DNA of 64,000 bases from Fusobacterium perfoetens (lineage in GTDB: Bacteria > Fusobacteriota > Fusobacteriia > Fusobacteriales > Fusobacteriaceae): assembly GCF_021531475.1 (NCBI RefSeq), contig NZ_JADYTX010000005.1, positions 1 through 64,000 of the forward strand, in the 5' to 3' direction. Numbering within the stretch: the stretch's first letter is position 1; every line of letters begins with the position of its first letter. The notes below the pieces were generated by a model. That model worked only from the letters and a program-made list of their open reading frames with translations. It was not told the origin of the DNA and searched no databases. Both the position numbers and the translations under genes were made by a program. This document shows, one piece after another, positions 9,386 to 61,748 of the stretch.

Positions 9386-9550
9386 TTATTTATTTTTTTG
9401 TGTTATCAAAATATATAGAGCTTTTGAAGTGGTACAGTTATTTTCAGCCTTAAATTTTTCTAAAGCTTTTGTCATCTCTTCATACTCTTCTGGTGTATAT
9501 TTATATCCAAACATTCTTTTTGTTTTGGTTATTCCAATAGGTCTTACCAT
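9386..9550 (-). CDS. Small DNA-binding-like protein with GYKYTPEEYE motif, copy 1
   Basis: 54 residues, MVRPIGITKTKRMFGYKYTP-type start. It is paralogous to the 61-residue protein at 28971: shared VRP/VGRP-x-GI, GYKYTPEEYE and a C-terminal TTS(K/R)A helix. The layout (basic arm, strand, two helices) fits a ribbon-helix-helix regulator. Its ribosome site overlaps the -35 box of the divergent small RNA promoter, in both copies. A promoter TTGAGT-N17-TATAAC on the minus strand may drive it. It is likely the regulator of the adjacent toxin-like cassette. Confidence 0.65.
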   Translation of the reverse strand: MVRPIGITKTKRMFGYKYTPEEYEEMTKALEKFKAENNCTTSKALYILITQKNK

Positions 9551-9594
9551 AGTTCCCCCTTGACTTTTTGATAAAAATAAGTTATAATCTTATT

Positions 9595-9660
9595 ACAAAC
9601 AAAACTCAAGCACGATGTTAAAAGGACTAATCATTTTTGGTTAGTTCTTTTATTTTTTTC
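9595..9660 (+). ncRNA. Antisense small RNA of cassette I
   Basis: The promoter is TTGACT at 9560-9565 and TATAAT at 9583-9588 (17-bp spacing). The RNA carries CTCAAGCACGAT (9605-9616), which is exactly complementary to the start region of the first peptide gene (9886-9897), and ends in the stem AAAGGACTAA/TTAGTTCTTT plus a U-run. The arrangement of direct repeats at both ends of convergent transcripts is that of par/fst-type type I systems. Confidence 0.75.
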
Positions 9661-9739
9661 TATTTTTTCTGATATATTGCACTCCTAAAATTATAACTAC
9701 AATACTTGTTATTGCTTGAATTATTTTTAAATATTCCAT
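9650..9739 (-). CDS. Tiny membrane peptide, second peptide of cassette I
   Basis: 29 residues: one hydrophobic helix (ITSIVVIILGVQYI) and a basic tail (RKNRKK). This is the form of type I toxins and other small membrane toxins. An AGGAG site lies about 10 bases upstream. Its stop codon falls inside the terminator arm of the antisense RNA. A G-rich hairpin (9777-9793) lies between it and the first peptide gene. Confidence 0.55.
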   Translation of the reverse strand: MEYLKIIQAITSIVVIILGVQYIRKNRKK

Positions 9740-9798
9740 AAATATTCATCTCCTTTTTAATTAAGTTATAGGGAGTGGGAGGAGCTACCTCCCAGCTG

Positions 9799-9894
9799 TT
9801 ATTTCTTATTGTTATCTATTTTTTCTTTAATAAAGATATAAATAACAATGGCATTGGCTACAATGCCGAGAAGAGTGTTTAGTTTCTCAAGCAC
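9799..9894 (-). CDS. Tiny membrane peptide, first peptide of cassette I
   Basis: 31 residues from GTG, preceded by AGGAGGTG. It has one hydrophobic helix (LLGIVANAIVIYIFI) and a charged tail. The start codon lies inside the 12-base repeat complementary to the antisense RNA, so that RNA should block its translation. Transcribed from the strong promoter at 9922-9950. It could be the toxin itself or a leader peptide controlling the second peptide. Confidence 0.6.
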   Translation of the reverse strand: MLEKLNTLLGIVANAIVIYIFIKEKIDNNKK

Positions 9895-9921
9895 GATATT
9901 TCACCTCCTCCCTATGTATAT

Positions 9922-9960
9922 ATTATAACTTATCCATATCAAAAAGTCAAGGACTTTTTG
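9922..9960 (-). promoter_or_regulatory. Promoter and inverted repeat of cassette I
   Basis: On the minus strand TTGACT (9945-9950) and TATAAT (9922-9927) are 17 bp apart. The spacer and flanks nearly repeat the antisense promoter at 9560-9588 in opposite orientation. CAAAAAGTC at 9940-9948 and GACTTTTTG at 9952-9960 form a perfect inverted repeat across the -35 box, a candidate operator for the neighbouring small regulator. Confidence 0.75.
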
Positions 9961-10491: not shown

Positions 10492-11649
10492 TTATAAATA
10501 TGCTTCTCCTTTGAAATCTTCCATTACATCAGTAGGCTTATAATCTGGGATATATGCAAACACAATATCATCAGTATTAGCTCTACATAAATCATATTCA
10601 GTTAATTTCTTAGCCTCTTCTTCTGTAATAGGTTTACCTTTATATGTTCCTTTAGAGATTATGTAATTTTTAACAGCTTCTGTATCTATTTTCATTCTGT
10701 TTTCATTTGCAGGGTCTAATTGTCCTGATTTTTGGAATGTTGCAAGATAAGCATTTACAGCTCCAAGGAATAATAATTTATTTGAATAGATATTTTGATA
10801 CTTTCCTCTGTAAGAGTTTATGAAAGTATTTCTAATATCTTTTTGATGCAAGTCCATAATCTCCATTTTTCTAATCTTAGTAAAACTTCTGTTCATACTA
10901 TCTGTTGCCGTTGTAAATGATGTTACTCCTCTAAGAATTACATATTTACTTCCATCATAAGATGTAAGTAATTTACCTTCTCCAATAGCTGTATTTTCAT
11001 CATCTACTGTTGTTGTAAATGCTTTTAACCAAGGTTGCTCCATATTAGTTATAGAAGCATTTAAAGGAGCTCCTGCACATAAAGAACCAATACATAAAGT
11101 ATATTCTTGTGCTGTATAAGCTTTTTCTTCAAAATCAACTATTGTATGTGCTGTTTGTCTAGTATCATAGTCAATTATCCAAGGTTTATCTGGTTTTGAT
11201 GAAGACGCTACAATAAGTTTTATTGTAGATGTATTATTACCTAATTTAACTGTTTCTATATTTCTTATAGAATTTATCCAAGTTTCTAAATCACTTACTG
11301 TTGTTTCAGGTTTATCCTCTCCAATTGTGAAAGGACACACTAAATAATTTGGCTCTTCTATAGCTATCTGTTTTAAAACATCTTGAAAATTCTCTTTCGT
11401 AGCTTTATATACTACTACTTTAAAAGGATTACCTCTAAAAGCCATAGCTTTTAAAGCCTTATAATTATCAGCAGTCCAATCCTTTTCATCTATTTCAACA
11501 GCTGAGTAATATTCTTTTTTTGTAAAATCTTCCTTAGTTGTATCAAACATGATAACACCAAGAACTCCTCTTACACTTCCTGAAATTACAACAGCGGCTC
11601 TCTCTATAAATTCCAATTGAAATTTACATTTTTTATTTAATGCTGCCAT
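10492..11649 (-). CDS. Tail sheath protein (XkdK-like)
   Basis: About 385 residues. Sheath features are an N-terminal ERAAVVISGSVRGVLGVIMFD strand region (shortened here), the central VKLGNNTSTIKLIVASSS and ASITNMEQPWLKAF, and a C-terminal domain beginning VILRGVTSFTT. The start at 11649 is chosen because GGAGG lies six bases upstream. It makes the contractile sheath, which identifies the phage as a myovirus. Confidence 0.88.
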   Translation of the reverse strand: MAALNKKCKFQLEFIERAAVVISGSVRGVLGVIMFDTTKEDFTKKEYYSAVEIDEKDWTADNYKALKAMAFRGNPFKVVVYKATKENFQDVLKQIAIEEPNYLVCPFTIGEDKPETTVSDLETWINSIRNIETVKLGNNTSTIKLIVASSSKPDKPWIIDYDTRQTAHTIVDFEEKAYTAQEYTLCIGSLCAGAPLNASITNMEQPWLKAFTTTVDDENTAIGEGKLLTSYDGSKYVILRGVTSFTTATDSMNRSFTKIRKMEIMDLHQKDIRNTFINSYRGKYQNIYSNKLLFLGAVNAYLATFQKSGQLDPANENRMKIDTEAVKNYIISKGTYKGKPITEEEAKKLTEYDLCRANTDDIVFAYIPDYKPTDVMEDFKGEAYL

Positions 11650-21381: not shown

Positions 21382-21567
21382 TTAATTTTCAAATTTTTCT
21401 TCTTTTATTTCTTTTATTAAAATTTCAAGTTCTTTTAAATCTTCCAATGTTGCGTTATTTCTTATAAAACTCTTTGCTGTTGCTTTATATGAATAATATC
21501 TTGTTTTTTCTCTGTTCTTTTCGTTATATTTTTCTTTAGCTCTTTTTTGTGCCTCTGTTAGTGCCAT
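21382..21567 (-). CDS. Small basic hypothetical phage protein
   Basis: 61 residues, charged and helical, MALTEAQKRAKEKYNEKNRE at the N-terminus. This N-terminal form is seen in many small phage proteins of unknown role. It begins 3 bp after the membrane peptide gene and ends at a strong terminator. Confidence 0.6.
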   Translation of the reverse strand: MALTEAQKRAKEKYNEKNREKTRYYSYKATAKSFIRNNATLEDLKELEILIKEIKEEKFEN

Positions 21568-21569
21568 AG

Positions 21570-21707
21570 CTATTCCCCCTTGAATATTCCATATAATAAA
21601 TATAGCGAGCTTATTAAAACTACTAAACTTATTATTTGTGATTTAGCCACCATATTGATAGCGATTAATATAGTATTCATTAAAATTATAATATCTTTTC
21701 TTTTCAT
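21570..21707 (-). CDS. Small membrane peptide, second peptide of a two-peptide locus
   Basis: 45 residues with two hydrophobic stretches (ILMNTILIAINMVA, IISLVVLISSLYLLYGI). It follows a G5/C5 hairpin (21738-21757) behind the first peptide, an arrangement like the two toxin-like cassettes of this prophage. No clear antisense RNA was found here, so it may be a holin-like or lone membrane peptide. Confidence 0.5.
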   Translation of the reverse strand: MKRKDIIILMNTILIAINMVAKSQIISLVVLISSLYLLYGIFKGE

Positions 21708-21765
21708 CTTTTTTGTGATATAATTATATTAAGAGGTTGGGGGATTTTACTCCCCCTTGTAAGTC

Positions 21766-21867
21766 TTAGTAGAATATCTTTATAAGTTCTAGCACTGCGA
21801 CCAACAGCTGAACAAGTATTAAAGTTATCTCTAAGGCTTTTTTTATATTCCTCTTTTTTTTCTTCAC
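21766..21867 (-). CDS. Small membrane peptide, first peptide
   Basis: 33 residues from GTG, seven bases after GGGGGG. A Lys-rich start (KKKKRNIKK) precedes one membrane helix (LILVQLLVAVLELIKI). A 66-residue overlapping frame (21704-21904) encloses it but has no properly spaced ribosome site. The promoter is at 21922-21950. Confidence 0.5.
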   Translation of the reverse strand: MKKKKRNIKKALEITLILVQLLVAVLELIKIFY

Positions 21868-21921
21868 TTTTGCACCCCCTTTTGTTTTTATTTTTTCCTT
21901 TCACCTCCTCTTTACATAATT

Positions 21922-21950
21922 ATTATACCACATAAGGTATATAAAATCAA
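21922..21950 (-). promoter_or_regulatory. Promoter of the two-peptide locus
   Basis: Minus strand TTGATT (21945-21950) and TATAAT (21922-21927), 17-bp spacing, followed by a GAGGAGG-rich leader. Confidence 0.65.
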
Positions 21951-27109: not shown

Positions 27110-27196
27110 TGGCGGAAGTAGAGGGATTCGAACCCACGAGAGCTATTAACTCGACAGTTTAGCAAACTGTTGCCCTACCTACTAGGCTATACTTCC
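27110..27196 (-). tRNA. tRNA-Ser(GCT)
   Basis: 87 bases with encoded CCA. Acceptor GGAAGTA/TACTTCC, D-arm GCC/GGC, anticodon stem ACAGT/ACTGT with loop TTGCTAA, long variable arm CGAG...CTCG and T-loop TTCGAAT. It reads AGC/AGU codons, common in AT-rich phage genes. Confidence 0.9.
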
Positions 27197-27971: not shown

Positions 27972-28163
27972 CTATTTTTCATATTTATATGGCTCGAAAA
28001 ATACTCTATATTTTTCTAAAGGATCTATTCTTCCTATTACTTCCCCCTCCAATGTCTGAAACTCAGTTATTTCTCTTTCAGACATTGGAGATTTTTCATC
28101 AATAATTTTATATTCGATTTTTACTACTTGTACAATTTCTACTTTTTTAACAATTTTTTCCAT
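27972..28163 (-). CDS. Hypothetical protein
   Basis: 63 residues; the first 20 are a hydrophobic-charged strand (IVKKVEIVQVVKIEYKII). Inside the gene a perfect 14-bp inverted repeat (28047-28060 with 28077-28090, core CCAATGTCTGA) can form a hairpin in the mRNA. Unknown function. Confidence 0.5.
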   Translation of the reverse strand: MEKIVKKVEIVQVVKIEYKIIDEKSPMSEREITEFQTLEGEVIGRIDPLEKYRVFFEPYKYEK

Positions 28164-28554: not shown

Positions 28555-28582
28555 TAAAAATATCATTTCTTCATTAAAAGTC

Positions 28583-28611
28583 TTGACTTTAATTTGTAGA
28601 TATGATATAAT
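28583..28611 (+). promoter_or_regulatory. Promoter of cassette II
   Basis: TTGACT (28583-28588) and TATAAT (28606-28611) at 17-bp spacing. AAAGTCTTGACTTT (28577-28590) is a palindrome across the -35 box, comparable to the repeat at 9940-9960 in cassette I. Confidence 0.75.
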
Positions 28612-28633
28612 ATTTTCGTAAGGGGGTGATAAA

Positions 28634-28732
28634 ATGTCTCAGTTCTTACAAGACCTTGTAAATTTGATAATCATCTTTAGAGAGATTAGAAAATTTTACA
28701 AATGGTATAGTAAAAACCATAGGGGGAAATAA
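28634..28732 (+). CDS. Tiny peptide, first peptide of cassette II
   Basis: 32 residues with a hydrophobic middle (LVNLIIIF) and a basic tail. An AGGGGGTG site precedes it. Its start codon lies inside a 16-base repeat (28633-28648) that recurs at 28901-28916 in the opposing antisense RNA. Its stop codon lies inside a G-rich hairpin (28721-28739). Confidence 0.6.
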   Translation: MSQFLQDLVNLIIIFREIRKFYKWYSKNHRGK

Positions 28733-28776
28733 GCCCCCTCCCCTATGGGGAATGAGACAAACCTAAGGAGGAAAAA

Positions 28777-28872
28777 ATGAATTTTAGTAATATTTTATTA
28801 TATTTGGCAGTAGGTTGTATTGCTATTGAAATTGCAGTAAAAGTATATAACAAATGGATAAAAAGAAAATAG
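28777..28872 (+). CDS. Tiny membrane peptide, second peptide of cassette II
   Basis: 31 residues: membrane helix (ILLYLAVGCIAIEIAV) plus basic tail (KWIKRK), the type I toxin form. A strong AAGGAGG site precedes it; CCTCC in the hairpin upstream can pair with this GGAGG, so translation of the first peptide may control access. It ends within the antisense terminator arm. Confidence 0.6.
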   Translation: MNFSNILLYLAVGCIAIEIAVKVYNKWIKRK

Positions 28873-28923
28873 ACACTCTCTAGGAATGTCTATCTTCTTT
28901 AATGTCTCAGTTCTTATTTTCTT
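28862..28923 (-). ncRNA. Antisense small RNA of cassette II
   Basis: The promoter on the minus strand is TTGACT (28953-28958) and TATAAT (28930-28935), 17-bp spacing. The RNA carries the complement of AATGTCTCAGTTCTTA, exactly matching the first peptide's start region, and ends with stem ATAGACA/TGTCTAT and a U-run. Confidence 0.78.
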
Positions 28924-28970
28924 AACTAGATTATACTCTATTTTCACAAAAAAGTCAAGGGAGGTCTAAA

Positions 28971-29156
28971 ATGGAAACTAAAAAAAAGGTTGGTAGACCT
29001 TTTGGTATTAATAAATCTGAAAAAATATTAGGATATAAATATACTCCAGAGGAATATGAGCTAATAAATAATACTTTGGAAGAACTCAAAGGAAAATATA
29101 AAACAACTTCAAGAGCTATTCTTGAATTATGTAACTTTTATCAAAATAATAAATAA
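28971..29156 (+). CDS. Small DNA-binding-like protein with GYKYTPEEYE motif, copy 2
   Basis: 61 residues, KKKVGRPFGINKSEKILGYK start, then TPEEYE and a TTSRAI helix; paralog of the 9386-9550 protein. GGGAGG before the start overlaps the -35 box of the divergent antisense RNA promoter, as in copy 1. A ribbon-helix-helix fold is likely. It probably regulates the cassette promoters. Confidence 0.65.
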   Translation: METKKKVGRPFGINKSEKILGYKYTPEEYELINNTLEELKGKYKTTSRAILELCNFYQNNK

Positions 29157-29184
29157 AAAAAGAGAGTTTAAGCTCTCTTTTTTT
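29154..29184. terminator. Bidirectional terminator
   Basis: AAAGAGAG pairs with CTCTCTTT, with T7 on the plus strand and T6 on the minus strand. It separates cassette II from the repressor operon. Confidence 0.85.
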
Positions 29185-29191
29185 ATTTATA

Positions 29192-40067: not shown

Positions 40068-40181
40068 ATGGATAATAAAATAGAAGCTGTGAATATTATA
40101 AATAATCTGTACAATTCTATAAAAAATAAAAATAAAGGAAATAATAATGGAAAGAGTAGCGATTTACATAAGGGTATCTAA
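40068..40181 (+). CDS. Small protein overlapping the integrase start
   Basis: 37 residues with a strong AGGAGG site. Its last 35 bases overlap the integrase gene in another frame. It could couple or limit integrase translation. Asn/Lys-rich, no motif. Confidence 0.45.
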   Translation: MDNKIEAVNIINNLYNSIKNKNKGNNNGKSSDLHKGI

Positions 40182-41574
40182 AAAAGAACAAGCAAAAAAC
40201 AAGGGAACAGATAGTTCCCTTGCTATTCAATTAAAAAAATGTACAGATTATTGTGAAGAAAAAAAATATGAAGTATTAAAAGTTTATAGTGATGTTGAAT
40301 CTGGTGGGAATGACGACAGAAAAGGGTTTAATGATTTACAAAATACTATCCCCAAAAAAATATATACAAAAGTTATATTTTGGGAAGTATCAAGAATTGC
40401 TCGTAAAATATCTACTGGTATGAAATTCTTTGAAGATTTAGAAAAATATGGAGTTAGCTTTGAAAGTGTTTCTCAACCATATTTAAAAGATTTTATGAGT
40501 TTATCTATTTTCTTAGCTTGGGGAACTGAGGATTTAAAGCAAATGTCTTTAAGAATCAAATCAAATCTTTTAGAAAAAACAAAGGCAGGGTATTTTGTTC
40601 ACGGAAATCCTGCTACTGGATATATAAGAGGAAAAAATAAAATGATTGTTCCTGATCCTGAAAAAGCTCCTTTAATTTTAAAGATATTTGAAACTTTTGC
40701 TGAGAATTGGAATCTTAGTGAAACAGGTAGAATTTTTGGAAAAACTAGAAGTGATATAACAGAAATAATTGATAATAGAATTTATATTGGAGAAGTTGTA
40801 TATAAAAAATATGTAAAAGATCCTGTTGATTCAAAGCATAGAATCAAGACCAAAAATAATAGAATATGGTACAAAGGACTACATGAGCCTATTGTGCCTC
40901 TAGAACTTTTTAACCTTTGTCAAGAAATTAGAAAACTCAATATCAAGATAAGAGAAAGCAGAGAAAAAGGGAAACCTATCCTTTTATTTAGTGGTTTAGT
41001 TGTTTGTACTTGTGGTAAAAAAATGTTTCAGACTAGAAGATATCACACAAATAAAGCTGGAGAAAAATATCCATATTATGTTTATCTTTGTACAAATAAA
41101 TTAACAGGAAAAAAACATTCTATTGCTGCTAGAAAATTAGATAATGCTATAATAGAAAAAATTAAAAATTCTAAAGAGTTATTAGAATTAAACGGCATCG
41201 AATACAATGAAAATGAATCTATAAAAAATAAATTAAAACTTATAGAGAAAGAACTTCTAGCTTTGGAAACAGAAAGAGAAAGAATTATAAAGCTATTCCA
41301 AAAAGAATTTATAAATGAAGATGAACTTGAAAGTAAATTCAATGATATAACAGCTAGAAAGAAAAAACTTAAAGAAAGTCAAAAGCACTATGAAGAAGAA
41401 GATAAAAAAGAATCTTCAAAAGATAATGTTGAAAATTTTGAAAAATTAAAATATATAATTGAAAATTATTCAGAAGATGATGTTGTTGAAACTAGAAAGT
41501 TATTAAGGTTATTAATAAAAGAAATAACTGTTGTAAGCAAAAAGCCATTAAAAGTAAATATCATTTTTAATTAA
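40147..41574 (+). CDS. int: Large serine integrase
   Basis: 475 residues. Catalytic Ser is in YIRVSKKEQ (residue 10). Resolvase domain to about 145, recombinase domain 150-275 (GNPATGYIRGKNKMIVPDP, EVVYKKYVKDP), then a zinc ribbon (CTCGKKM ... YLCTNKLTGKKH) in which the last Cys appears replaced by His, and a coiled coil (350-420). It ends 54 bp before the sirtuin homology, the attachment site. Excision needs a directionality factor not identified here. Confidence 0.93.
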   Translation: MERVAIYIRVSKKEQAKNKGTDSSLAIQLKKCTDYCEEKKYEVLKVYSDVESGGNDDRKGFNDLQNTIPKKIYTKVIFWEVSRIARKISTGMKFFEDLEKYGVSFESVSQPYLKDFMSLSIFLAWGTEDLKQMSLRIKSNLLEKTKAGYFVHGNPATGYIRGKNKMIVPDPEKAPLILKIFETFAENWNLSETGRIFGKTRSDITEIIDNRIYIGEVVYKKYVKDPVDSKHRIKTKNNRIWYKGLHEPIVPLELFNLCQEIRKLNIKIRESREKGKPILLFSGLVVCTCGKKMFQTRRYHTNKAGEKYPYYVYLCTNKLTGKKHSIAARKLDNAIIEKIKNSKELLELNGIEYNENESIKNKLKLIEKELLALETERERIIKLFQKEFINEDELESKFNDITARKKKLKESQKHYEEEDKKESSKDNVENFEKLKYIIENYSEDDVVETRKLLRLLIKEITVVSKKPLKVNIIFN

Positions 41575-41602
41575 AGTTTATTTTGATAAACTTATTTTAT
41601 TT
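41574..41602 (+). terminator. Integrase terminator
   Basis: AAGTTTA (41574-41580) pairs with TAAACTT (41587-41593), followed by ATTTTATTT. Confidence 0.65.
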
Positions 41603-41635
41603 CCCAAAAAACAGGGTAAAGGCATTAGTTTCAAC
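41603..41635. other. Right prophage end (attR) inside the sirtuin gene
   Basis: Sirtuin-type coding begins at about 41628 (Val-Ser-Thr-Asp-Ser-Gly-Ile). The codons before it do not encode the expected glycine-rich GGAG. The junction thus lies within about 20 bp of 41628. The left end is outside the window, so the core sequence cannot be determined. Confidence 0.75.
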
Positions 41636-42272
41636 TGACTCTGGAATAAAAGATTTTAGAGGAAAAAATGGTTTATATAAAGAAAAAAACTATATGGGAT
41701 ATGAGCCTGAAGAGATTTTAAGTATTGACTTTTTCCTTAGTCACACTGATATTTTTAATAAATATATTGAAGAAAAGATGATGATTAACGATATCAAGCC
41801 AAACCCTGGACATAAAGCTTTAGCTGAGCTTGAAAAAATGGGAAAAGTTAAAGCGGTTATCACTCAAAATATAGATAATCTTCATCAAGAGGGAGGAAGT
41901 AAAAAAGTCCTTGAACTTCACGGTACTTTAAAAGATTGGTATTGTCTAAAATGTGGTAAAAGAGCTAACAGAAGATTTGATTGTGAATGTGGAGGAGTTG
42001 TTAGACCTCGTGTTACTCTTTATGGAGAAATGCTTGATGAAAAAGTTACTGATGCTGCTATATCTGAGATAAAAAAAGCTGATACCTTAATTATTATCGG
42101 TACTAGCCTTACAGTTTATCCTGCTGCTTATTATATCAATTACTTTAGAGGAAAAAATCTTGTGATTATAAATGAAACTCCTACATCTCAAGACCATATC
42201 GCCACTCTTGTTATAAGGGATAACTTCTCCAAAGTTTTCTCAGAAACTTTAGAAATCTTAAAAAATAACTAA
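41628..42272 (+). pseudogene. cobB: Sirtuin (NAD-dependent protein deacylase) truncated by prophage
   Basis: About 215 residues remain, from VSTDSGIKDFRGKNGLY to the end, including ITQNIDNLHQEGG, ELHGTL and the zinc ligands (CLKCGK, CECGG). The first 25-30 residues with the Rossmann GAG motif for NAD are missing, so the product should be inactive while the prophage is present. A TTG at 41583 could start a fusion peptide. Excision would restore the gene. Confidence 0.88.
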
Positions 42273-61620: not shown

Positions 61621-61649
61621 TTGTAAACTTTTTTTAAATATTATATAAT
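61621..61649 (+). promoter_or_regulatory. Promoter of the riboswitch-antiporter unit
   Basis: TTGTAA (61621-61626) and TATAAT (61644-61649), 17-bp spacing. Confidence 0.7.
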
Positions 61650-61655
61650 ATTTTT

Positions 61656-61748
61656 GGAGATGAGGCTCTCCCTACACTTTGGTGTAAAACGCTTATAATT
61701 AAGATGATAGCTTCTACAGATGTTTTTTTGCATTTGTGGAAGTTTTTT
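61656..61748 (+). promoter_or_regulatory. Fluoride riboswitch (crcB motif) with terminator
   Basis: GGAGATGAGGCTCTCC, then AAAACGC, then AAGATGATAGCTTCTACAG follow the fluoride aptamer order (GATG...CC, AACGC, TGAT(A/G)GC-tCTAC). The last part is also the 5' arm of a terminator (61711-61722 with 61731-61742, then T6). Fluoride binding should favour antitermination of the antiporter gene. Confidence 0.82.

Follow-up and report, generated by a model that had tools for sequence, protein, structure and literature searches.

The window analysed here, the first 64,000 nucleotides of the Fusobacterium perfoetens contig NZ_JADYTX010000005.1, contains a prophage with a compact cassette (cassette II), which is probably a prophage-borne module resembling a type I toxin–antitoxin (TA) system and composed of two peptides, an antisense RNA and a regulator gene, with prophage retention as its role. 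We put the probability of this reading at about 0.68. The parts of the cassette, their order, and the complementarity of its repeats together with the coordinated change of these repeats between cassettes were observed directly. An antisense RNA complementary to the peptide messenger RNA (mRNA) of the same locus, which characterizes type I TA systems in general, is predicted from the sequence. Cassette II (window 28577–29190, plus strand) consists of the following features, where ORF denotes an open reading frame and SD a Shine–Dalgarno sequence:

28577–28611, plus: sense promoter TTGACT-N17-TATAAT (TTGACT 28583–28588, TATAAT 28606–28611); the dyad AAAGTC-TT-GACTTT on the -35 hexamer is a candidate ORF3 operator.
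28622–28628, plus: SD of ORF1, GGGGGTG; pairing with the C-rich hairpin tail is possible.
28633–28648, plus: direct repeat copy 1, AATGTCTCAGTTCTTA, 16 nt, covering the ORF1 ATG (28634).
28634–28732, plus: ORF1, a 32-residue peptide, MSQFLQDLVNLIIIFREIRKFYKWYSKNHRGK, putative toxin.
28721–28751, plus: G/C hairpin or hairpins separating ORF1 and ORF2 (-20.2 kcal/mol, z -1.9); relatives have hairpins too.
28777–28872, plus: ORF2, a 31-residue peptide with a single transmembrane segment, MNFSNILLYLAVGCIAIEIAVKVYNKWIKRK, with a strong SD, AAGGAGG.
28862–28900, minus: terminator stem-loop of the antisense RNA, 17 bp with a U tail (z -5.25), which probably also ends the sense mRNA.
28901–28916, minus: direct repeat copy 2, complementary, when read on the minus strand, to the region around the ORF1 start.
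28860–28923, minus: predicted antisense RNA of ~64 nt, an open 5′ end followed by the terminator hairpin.
28930–28958, minus: antisense promoter TTGACT-N17-TATAAT (TTGACT 28958–28953, TATAAT 28935–28930).
28971–29156, plus: ORF3, a 61-residue GRP...GYKYTPEEYE protein with a predicted strand-helix-helix fold (predicted local distance difference test score 66), candidate autorepressor of the ribbon-helix-helix (RHH) type; no Pfam match.
29149–29190, both strands: bidirectional terminator, recognized from the sequence, common to cassette II and the convergent cI–dUTPase operon.

A preliminary description of this DNA had named the 16-base repeat holding the start codon of the first peptide, the hairpin, the second membrane peptide, the antisense promoter and the gene for a GYKYTPEEYE protein, and all of these were located. 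The ribosome-binding site of ORF3 was said to overlap the antisense promoter; the site (28959–28964) only lies directly next to the -35 hexamer. The sense and antisense promoters each match 11 of 12 consensus bases, are the best two of 10 promoter-like sites in the region, and converge, as do those of plasmid par loci. The predicted fold of the antisense strand (28924–28860) leaves 24 nt open at the 5′ end, after which comes a 17-bp hairpin closing in U residues. The U tail of this terminator stem is strong on the antisense side, and the T run on the sense side is weaker. The open 5′ end includes the exact complement of the repeat, and hence of the ORF1 start. A chance origin of the repeat was rejected: dinucleotide shuffles of the 584-nt cassette give P=0.003 for a repeat of this length at any position, base composition predicts 1.3e-6 matches of 16 nt when the ORF1-start stretch is compared with the antisense 5′ stretch, and 4000 random pairs of stretches yielded no match of at least 14 nt.

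Evidence for antisense control comes from comparison with other cassettes. The preliminary description presented cassette II as the second copy of a system laid out on the same plan in cassette I. The layout is indeed shared, although the repeats differ in length (16 nt versus 12 nt) and sequence, and the prophage has a third, repeat-less cassette that was absent from that description, making three in total (I and II of the repeat-bearing, par-like type; III repeat-less):

9386–9957, minus: cassette I (promoter 9957–9922; ORF1 9894–9799; ORF2 9739–9650; ORF3 9550–9386).
9897–9886 and 9616–9605, minus: cassette I repeat, ATCGTGCTTGAG, 12 nt.
9560–9588, plus: cassette I antisense promoter.
21382–21949, minus: cassette III, repeat-less (promoter with a spacer dyad; ORF1 21867–21766; hairpin 21756–21739; ORF2 21707–21570).
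21719–21724, transcribed on the plus strand: hexamer of the cassette III antisense extended -10, TGATATAAT.
21567–21382, minus: cassette III ORF3, a member of phrog_2277.

The GYKYTPEEYE motif matches exactly twice in the window, in ORF3 of cassettes I and II. A third par-type cassette, with the repeat AAACGTGCTTGATTT, was found in another genome (G018). The three par-type cassettes have three different repeats, yet both copies are identical inside each cassette, as predicted by selection for sense–antisense pairing. In every case the start codon of ORF1 is covered by copy 1, and copy 2 falls within the 5′ end of the antisense RNA; the two copies are spaced 268 nt (II), 281 nt (I) and 277 nt (G018) apart. 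Predicted duplexes between antisense and mRNA 5′ ends amount to -25.3 (cassette II), -24.7 and -22.2 kcal/mol for cognate pairs versus -10.8 to -15.2 kcal/mol for non-cognate ones. Since only cognate pairs are predicted to bind strongly, no cross-talk is expected between the antisense RNAs of cassettes I and II, a point that the preliminary description had proposed to check. Recent duplication of one cassette into another was rejected because both repeats and peptides differ. The spacers of the sense and antisense promoters are identical at 14/17 and 13/17 positions in cassette I and G018, where one promoter looks as if it were an inverted copy of the other, and at 9/17 positions in cassette II. 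Scanning for GTGCTTGA repeats gave no new par-type member among the matches listed.

ORF1 appears to be conserved as a protein. The ratio of non-synonymous to synonymous differences (pN/pS) of ORF1 ranges from 0.10 to 0.26 in 8 pairs of relatives (pooled 0.20), indicating purifying selection; ORF2 has 0.18–0.44 in most of the 8 pairs and 0.88 in one, and ORF3 0.15–0.43. Part of the constraint may stem from the overlapping antisense RNA; these ratios therefore lend support without being conclusive. ORF1 peptides have a hydrophobic core in common and a mostly basic C-terminus. The constraint on ORF1 and the coordinated change of the repeats agree with the earlier claim that the conserved layout is most likely functional, as an antisense-controlled peptide system. 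The same data bear on the unlikely alternative that ORF1 and the hairpin form a regulatory leader, an attenuator or translational coupler for ORF2–ORF3 tuned by the antisense RNA, with peptides acting in the phage cycle (holin-like, in lysis timing) and not as addiction toxins. Against such a leader, ORF1 is conserved as a protein with its core and basic end, and the repeat targets the ORF1 start itself. Consistent with a leader, the ORF1 SD is predicted to pair with the hairpin tail in the mRNA of cassette I and G018, ORF2 of cassette II and one relative's ORF1 have weak holin-family matches (E 0.05 and 0.013, respectively), and ORF2 of nearly all repeat-less members lacks an SD and starts 16–42 nt behind the hairpin, as expected of coupled reinitiation.

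The repeat-less members belong to a wider group, in which coding constraint, promoter dyads and antisense promoters support the TA-like interpretation. The analysis covered about 27 loci, and the search patterns that led to them prescribed parts of the layout; several are close relatives, and shuffle P-values overstate certainty where members share ancestry. Direct searches with ORF3 found no relatives in phages, and those with a relative's ORF1 peptide none in phages or plasmids. A profile of ORF3, used in viral and genome scans, led only to two viral contigs (L158, L159) with the same gene order and no repeat, in which the antisense promoter TTGACA-N17-TATAAT overlaps the ORF2 start directly behind the hairpin. 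A search on promoter, SD and hairpin, with the dyad, antisense promoter, ORF2 and ORF3 not used in the pattern, returned 12 and then 4 more contigs, nearly all encoding a ~30-residue peptide; many have an antisense -10 behind the hairpin and a second transmembrane peptide, frequently together with a gene for a small DNA-binding protein. The group also includes a Phascolarctobacterium prophage (L193), Shouchella (L184), L136, Listeria phages U153 and B025, where the operon lies beside int/attP, and Streptococcus phage Javan5. In all, about 20 loci, mostly from Firmicutes phages, have the same operon, usually with the antisense promoter directly behind the hairpin. The sense-promoter pattern alone gave mostly chance matches, and most of its genome-contig matches had no cassette; one (G029 C32) is the promoter ahead of a different, larger gene. 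A similarity in G000 C3 was rejected on reading by eye, as it precedes a tRNA-Leu-like gene.

With each set of close relatives counted as one, 14 of 16 repeat-less members have a significant antisense -10 just after the hairpin (combined p 2e-17); par-type cassettes have none at that site. The preliminary description held that related phages carrying a peptide gene without the repeat or the antisense promoter would speak against it. The repeat is indeed missing in L158, L159 and the Firmicutes loci; most of these keep the antisense promoter, moved beside the hairpin, which indicates that the direct repeat is, judging by these sequences, specific to the sub-type with the antisense gene behind ORF2. 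In a remnant in genome G029 (L005, G029 contig 10), the sense -10, ORF1 and the greater part of ORF2 are deleted, and the antisense gene and ORF3 remain. This is the direction of decay expected of a TA system, if losing the antitoxin alone is costly, and the regulatory leader does not explain it.

The third gene is probably that of a small DNA-binding protein; in cassette II its predicted strand-helix-helix order fits RHH proteins. The ORF3 position is filled by several families: GYKYTPEE proteins, phrog_2277, Cro-like helix-turn-helix (HTH) proteins and others. The assignment to phrog_2277 comes from PHROGs matches in Listeria and cassette III and from similarity in Javan5 and Shouchella. GYKYTPEE-type ORF3 goes with the dyad AAGTC-N1-3-GACTT on the -35, phrog_2277 of Listeria and Streptococcus with the dyad TATARTACATGTAYTATA in the spacer (cassette III and Shouchella differ), and several HTH members with a dyad like CCACGTTATAACGTGG. 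This change of dyad with ORF3 family suggests that ORF3 represses its own operon. The sense-promoter dyad has a combined p of 6e-10 over 18 members and of 3e-7 without the GYKYTPEE group; L136, L193 and L184 were excluded from this test because their search pattern contained the dyad. Streptococcus mutans phage M102 (L237) has phrog_2277 without the operon, so the gene also lives on its own. Several other genomes (L006–L030; G025–G028 and others) encode 6–11 GRPLGSG...TEEEY proteins each, distant ORF3 relatives outside any cassette, some with longer C-terminal parts.

Based on these comparisons, a mechanism can be proposed. A short mRNA would encode two hydrophobic or amphipathic, C-terminally basic peptides, which are probably membrane-active. 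The convergent antisense RNA of ~64 nt would block ORF1 translation: owing to the direct repeat, its open 5′ end is predicted to be the exact complement of the ORF1 start region, and its terminator stem would pair with the mRNA 3′ end. In at least two cassettes the hairpin tail is predicted to hide the SD, and ORF3 would repress the sense promoter via the -35 dyad. Upon prophage loss, the antisense RNA and the repressor would decay, peptide made from surviving mRNA would harm the cell, and the prophage would thereby be retained. In the repeat-less type the antisense RNA starts beside the hairpin and could run directly over ORF1. The antisense RNAs of cassettes I, II and G018, by contrast, begin downstream of ORF2 and are predicted to end short of ORF1; the repeat would restore complementarity, which would account for the joint occurrence of the repeat and this promoter position.

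Several observations weigh against this interpretation. The peptides gave nothing significant in Pfam, NCBIfam, PHROGs and PADLOC and match no known toxin family. The hydrophobicity of cassette II ORF1 is only weak, its best mean over 17 residues being 0.96 compared with 2.18 for ORF2. The inverted repeat that the preliminary description placed at the -35 of the otherwise near-consensus sense promoter has p=0.29 alone in cassette II, and its weight comes only from the relatives. The SD-hiding fold of cassette II has several alternatives, and the local one is no better than in shuffles. A Foldseek search against the PDB did not support an RHH fold of ORF3, and a PDB sequence search was uninformative. 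Only three complete par-type members were found, two of them in one prophage.

Cassette II closely resembles the Fst/RNAII par locus of plasmid pAD1 and its relatives, which also have convergent RNAs, direct repeats at both 5′ ends complementing the translation start, a terminator stem in the overlap and a ~30-residue peptide; the SD sequestration of par is predicted in cassette I and G018. Unlike par, it has two peptide ORFs with a G/C hairpin between them, a third gene, probably for a DNA-binding protein, a sense-promoter dyad, and a location in a Fusobacterium-family phage. It is very unlikely that cassette II is a genuine, diverged Fst/Ldr par locus and not the product of convergence. The convergent promoters, the positions of DRa and DRb, the terminator stem and the predicted SD-sequestering fold would fit such a membership (PMC7472228), as would a Trp ahead of the basic tail in ORF1 and ORF2, which occurs in cassette II only. 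However, the peptides have no PXXXG motif and no Pfam or NCBIfam Fst match, and Fst loci contain a single ORF without a regulator gene. Moreover, the operons related to it in promoter, hairpin and ORF3 lack the repeat, which makes the par layout appear to be a derived state in this group.

Three other systems share features with the module. The yonT/yoyJ/SR6 locus of prophage SPbeta, a type I TA system with two toxins, also has an extended -10 antisense promoter and a prophage location, but no direct repeats are described for SR6, its downstream genes are not described as a repressor, and its first peptide is larger (58 residues) (PMC5848175). The yonT-like arrangement of two peptide genes on one mRNA with one antisense RNA overlapping both is found in the repeat-less type (cassette III); the cassette II antisense RNA reaches ORF1 only via the repeat. 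In Listeria monocytogenes, rli98 and rli48 were reported as antisense to each other (PMC4179725), and phages U153 and B025 carry the operon beside attP. The Rfam rli48 model aligns over its full length to the antisense strand of a relative (L220; E 4.7e-4, below the gathering score). Apart from the report on rli98/rli48, no experiment hints at transcription of both strands in such a module; together with the Listeria phage sequences, this report suggests that rli98 is the ORF1 mRNA. Unlike cassette II, these loci are repeat-less, and they are not described as peptide-coding or as TA systems in the papers cited.

Prophages of Clostridioides difficile carry type I TA systems with peptides of 34–47 residues that stabilize their prophage (PMC7699646). 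These systems (CD0977.1-RCd11 etc.) are likewise present as several pairs of a small basic-tailed membrane peptide and an antisense RNA per prophage, and one phiC2 copy lies between tail core and tape measure genes, comparable to cassette I. They differ in having a single ORF, and phiC2 lacks the central hairpin, ORF2 and an adjoining regulator gene. Phage phiC2 (L243) has two unannotated toxin-like ORFs at 11498 and 33352 with 5′/3′ untranslated region complementarity, one of them being the copy between the tail core and tape measure genes.

Cassette II was previously thought to lie between two CI-controlled promoters and thus probably to be active in the lysogen. This placement is unsupported: the cassette is downstream of a leftward cI / dCTP deaminase-like / dUTPase / DUF1653 operon, converges on it over one terminator (29149–29190) and has its own promoter, which together with the dyad suggests self-regulation. 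The proximity to immunity genes, and the position of the Listeria phage copies beside int/attP, would suit a superinfection-exclusion or abortive-infection module, in which the peptides would be set free once an infecting phage perturbs the repressor or the antisense RNA. Carriers are temperate phages with up to three cassettes per prophage, and type I TA systems can serve in defence (PMC8167048). Nevertheless, we consider this function improbable, as there was no PADLOC match and cassette positions vary among members (tail region, before terminase genes, immunity region, attP) and are not consistently tied to defence genes.

Taken as a type I TA-like module, cassette II may be one form of a single widespread, unnamed phage module across Fusobacteria and Firmicutes, a generalization that we regard as an even bet. 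The module would comprise two peptides, a G/C hairpin, an antisense RNA and a DNA-binding gene that can be exchanged, its operator at the sense promoter differing from one gene family to the next. The antisense gene would have moved behind ORF2 and the direct repeat compensated, giving a par-like layout independent of Fst, and rli98/rli48 would be one member. A literature search for type I TA systems in Fusobacteria found none, and the module, if real, would add a TA-like system of this type there and provide a mechanism and coding function for long-known Listeria small RNAs. Antisense–target pairs with different repeats in one prophage form a natural series in which orthogonality of RNA antitoxins is testable, and a relocated antisense promoter makes testable how a par-like repeat layout arises.

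Other features of the window were recorded. A tRNA-Ser (GCT) lies within the prophage between the late genes and the immunity region (27110–27196, minus), and a perfect 15-bp inverted repeat, CTCCAATGTCTGAAA, with a 14-nt loop (28047–28090) lies inside the ORF at 27972–28163. A serine recombinase is directly 5′ of an apparently 5′-truncated SIR2-family gene (40147–42272); therefore, the prophage integration site is probably the sirtuin gene, with the right end near 41580. A fluoride riboswitch (61647–61723; Rfam) precedes a cation/proton antiporter-like gene.
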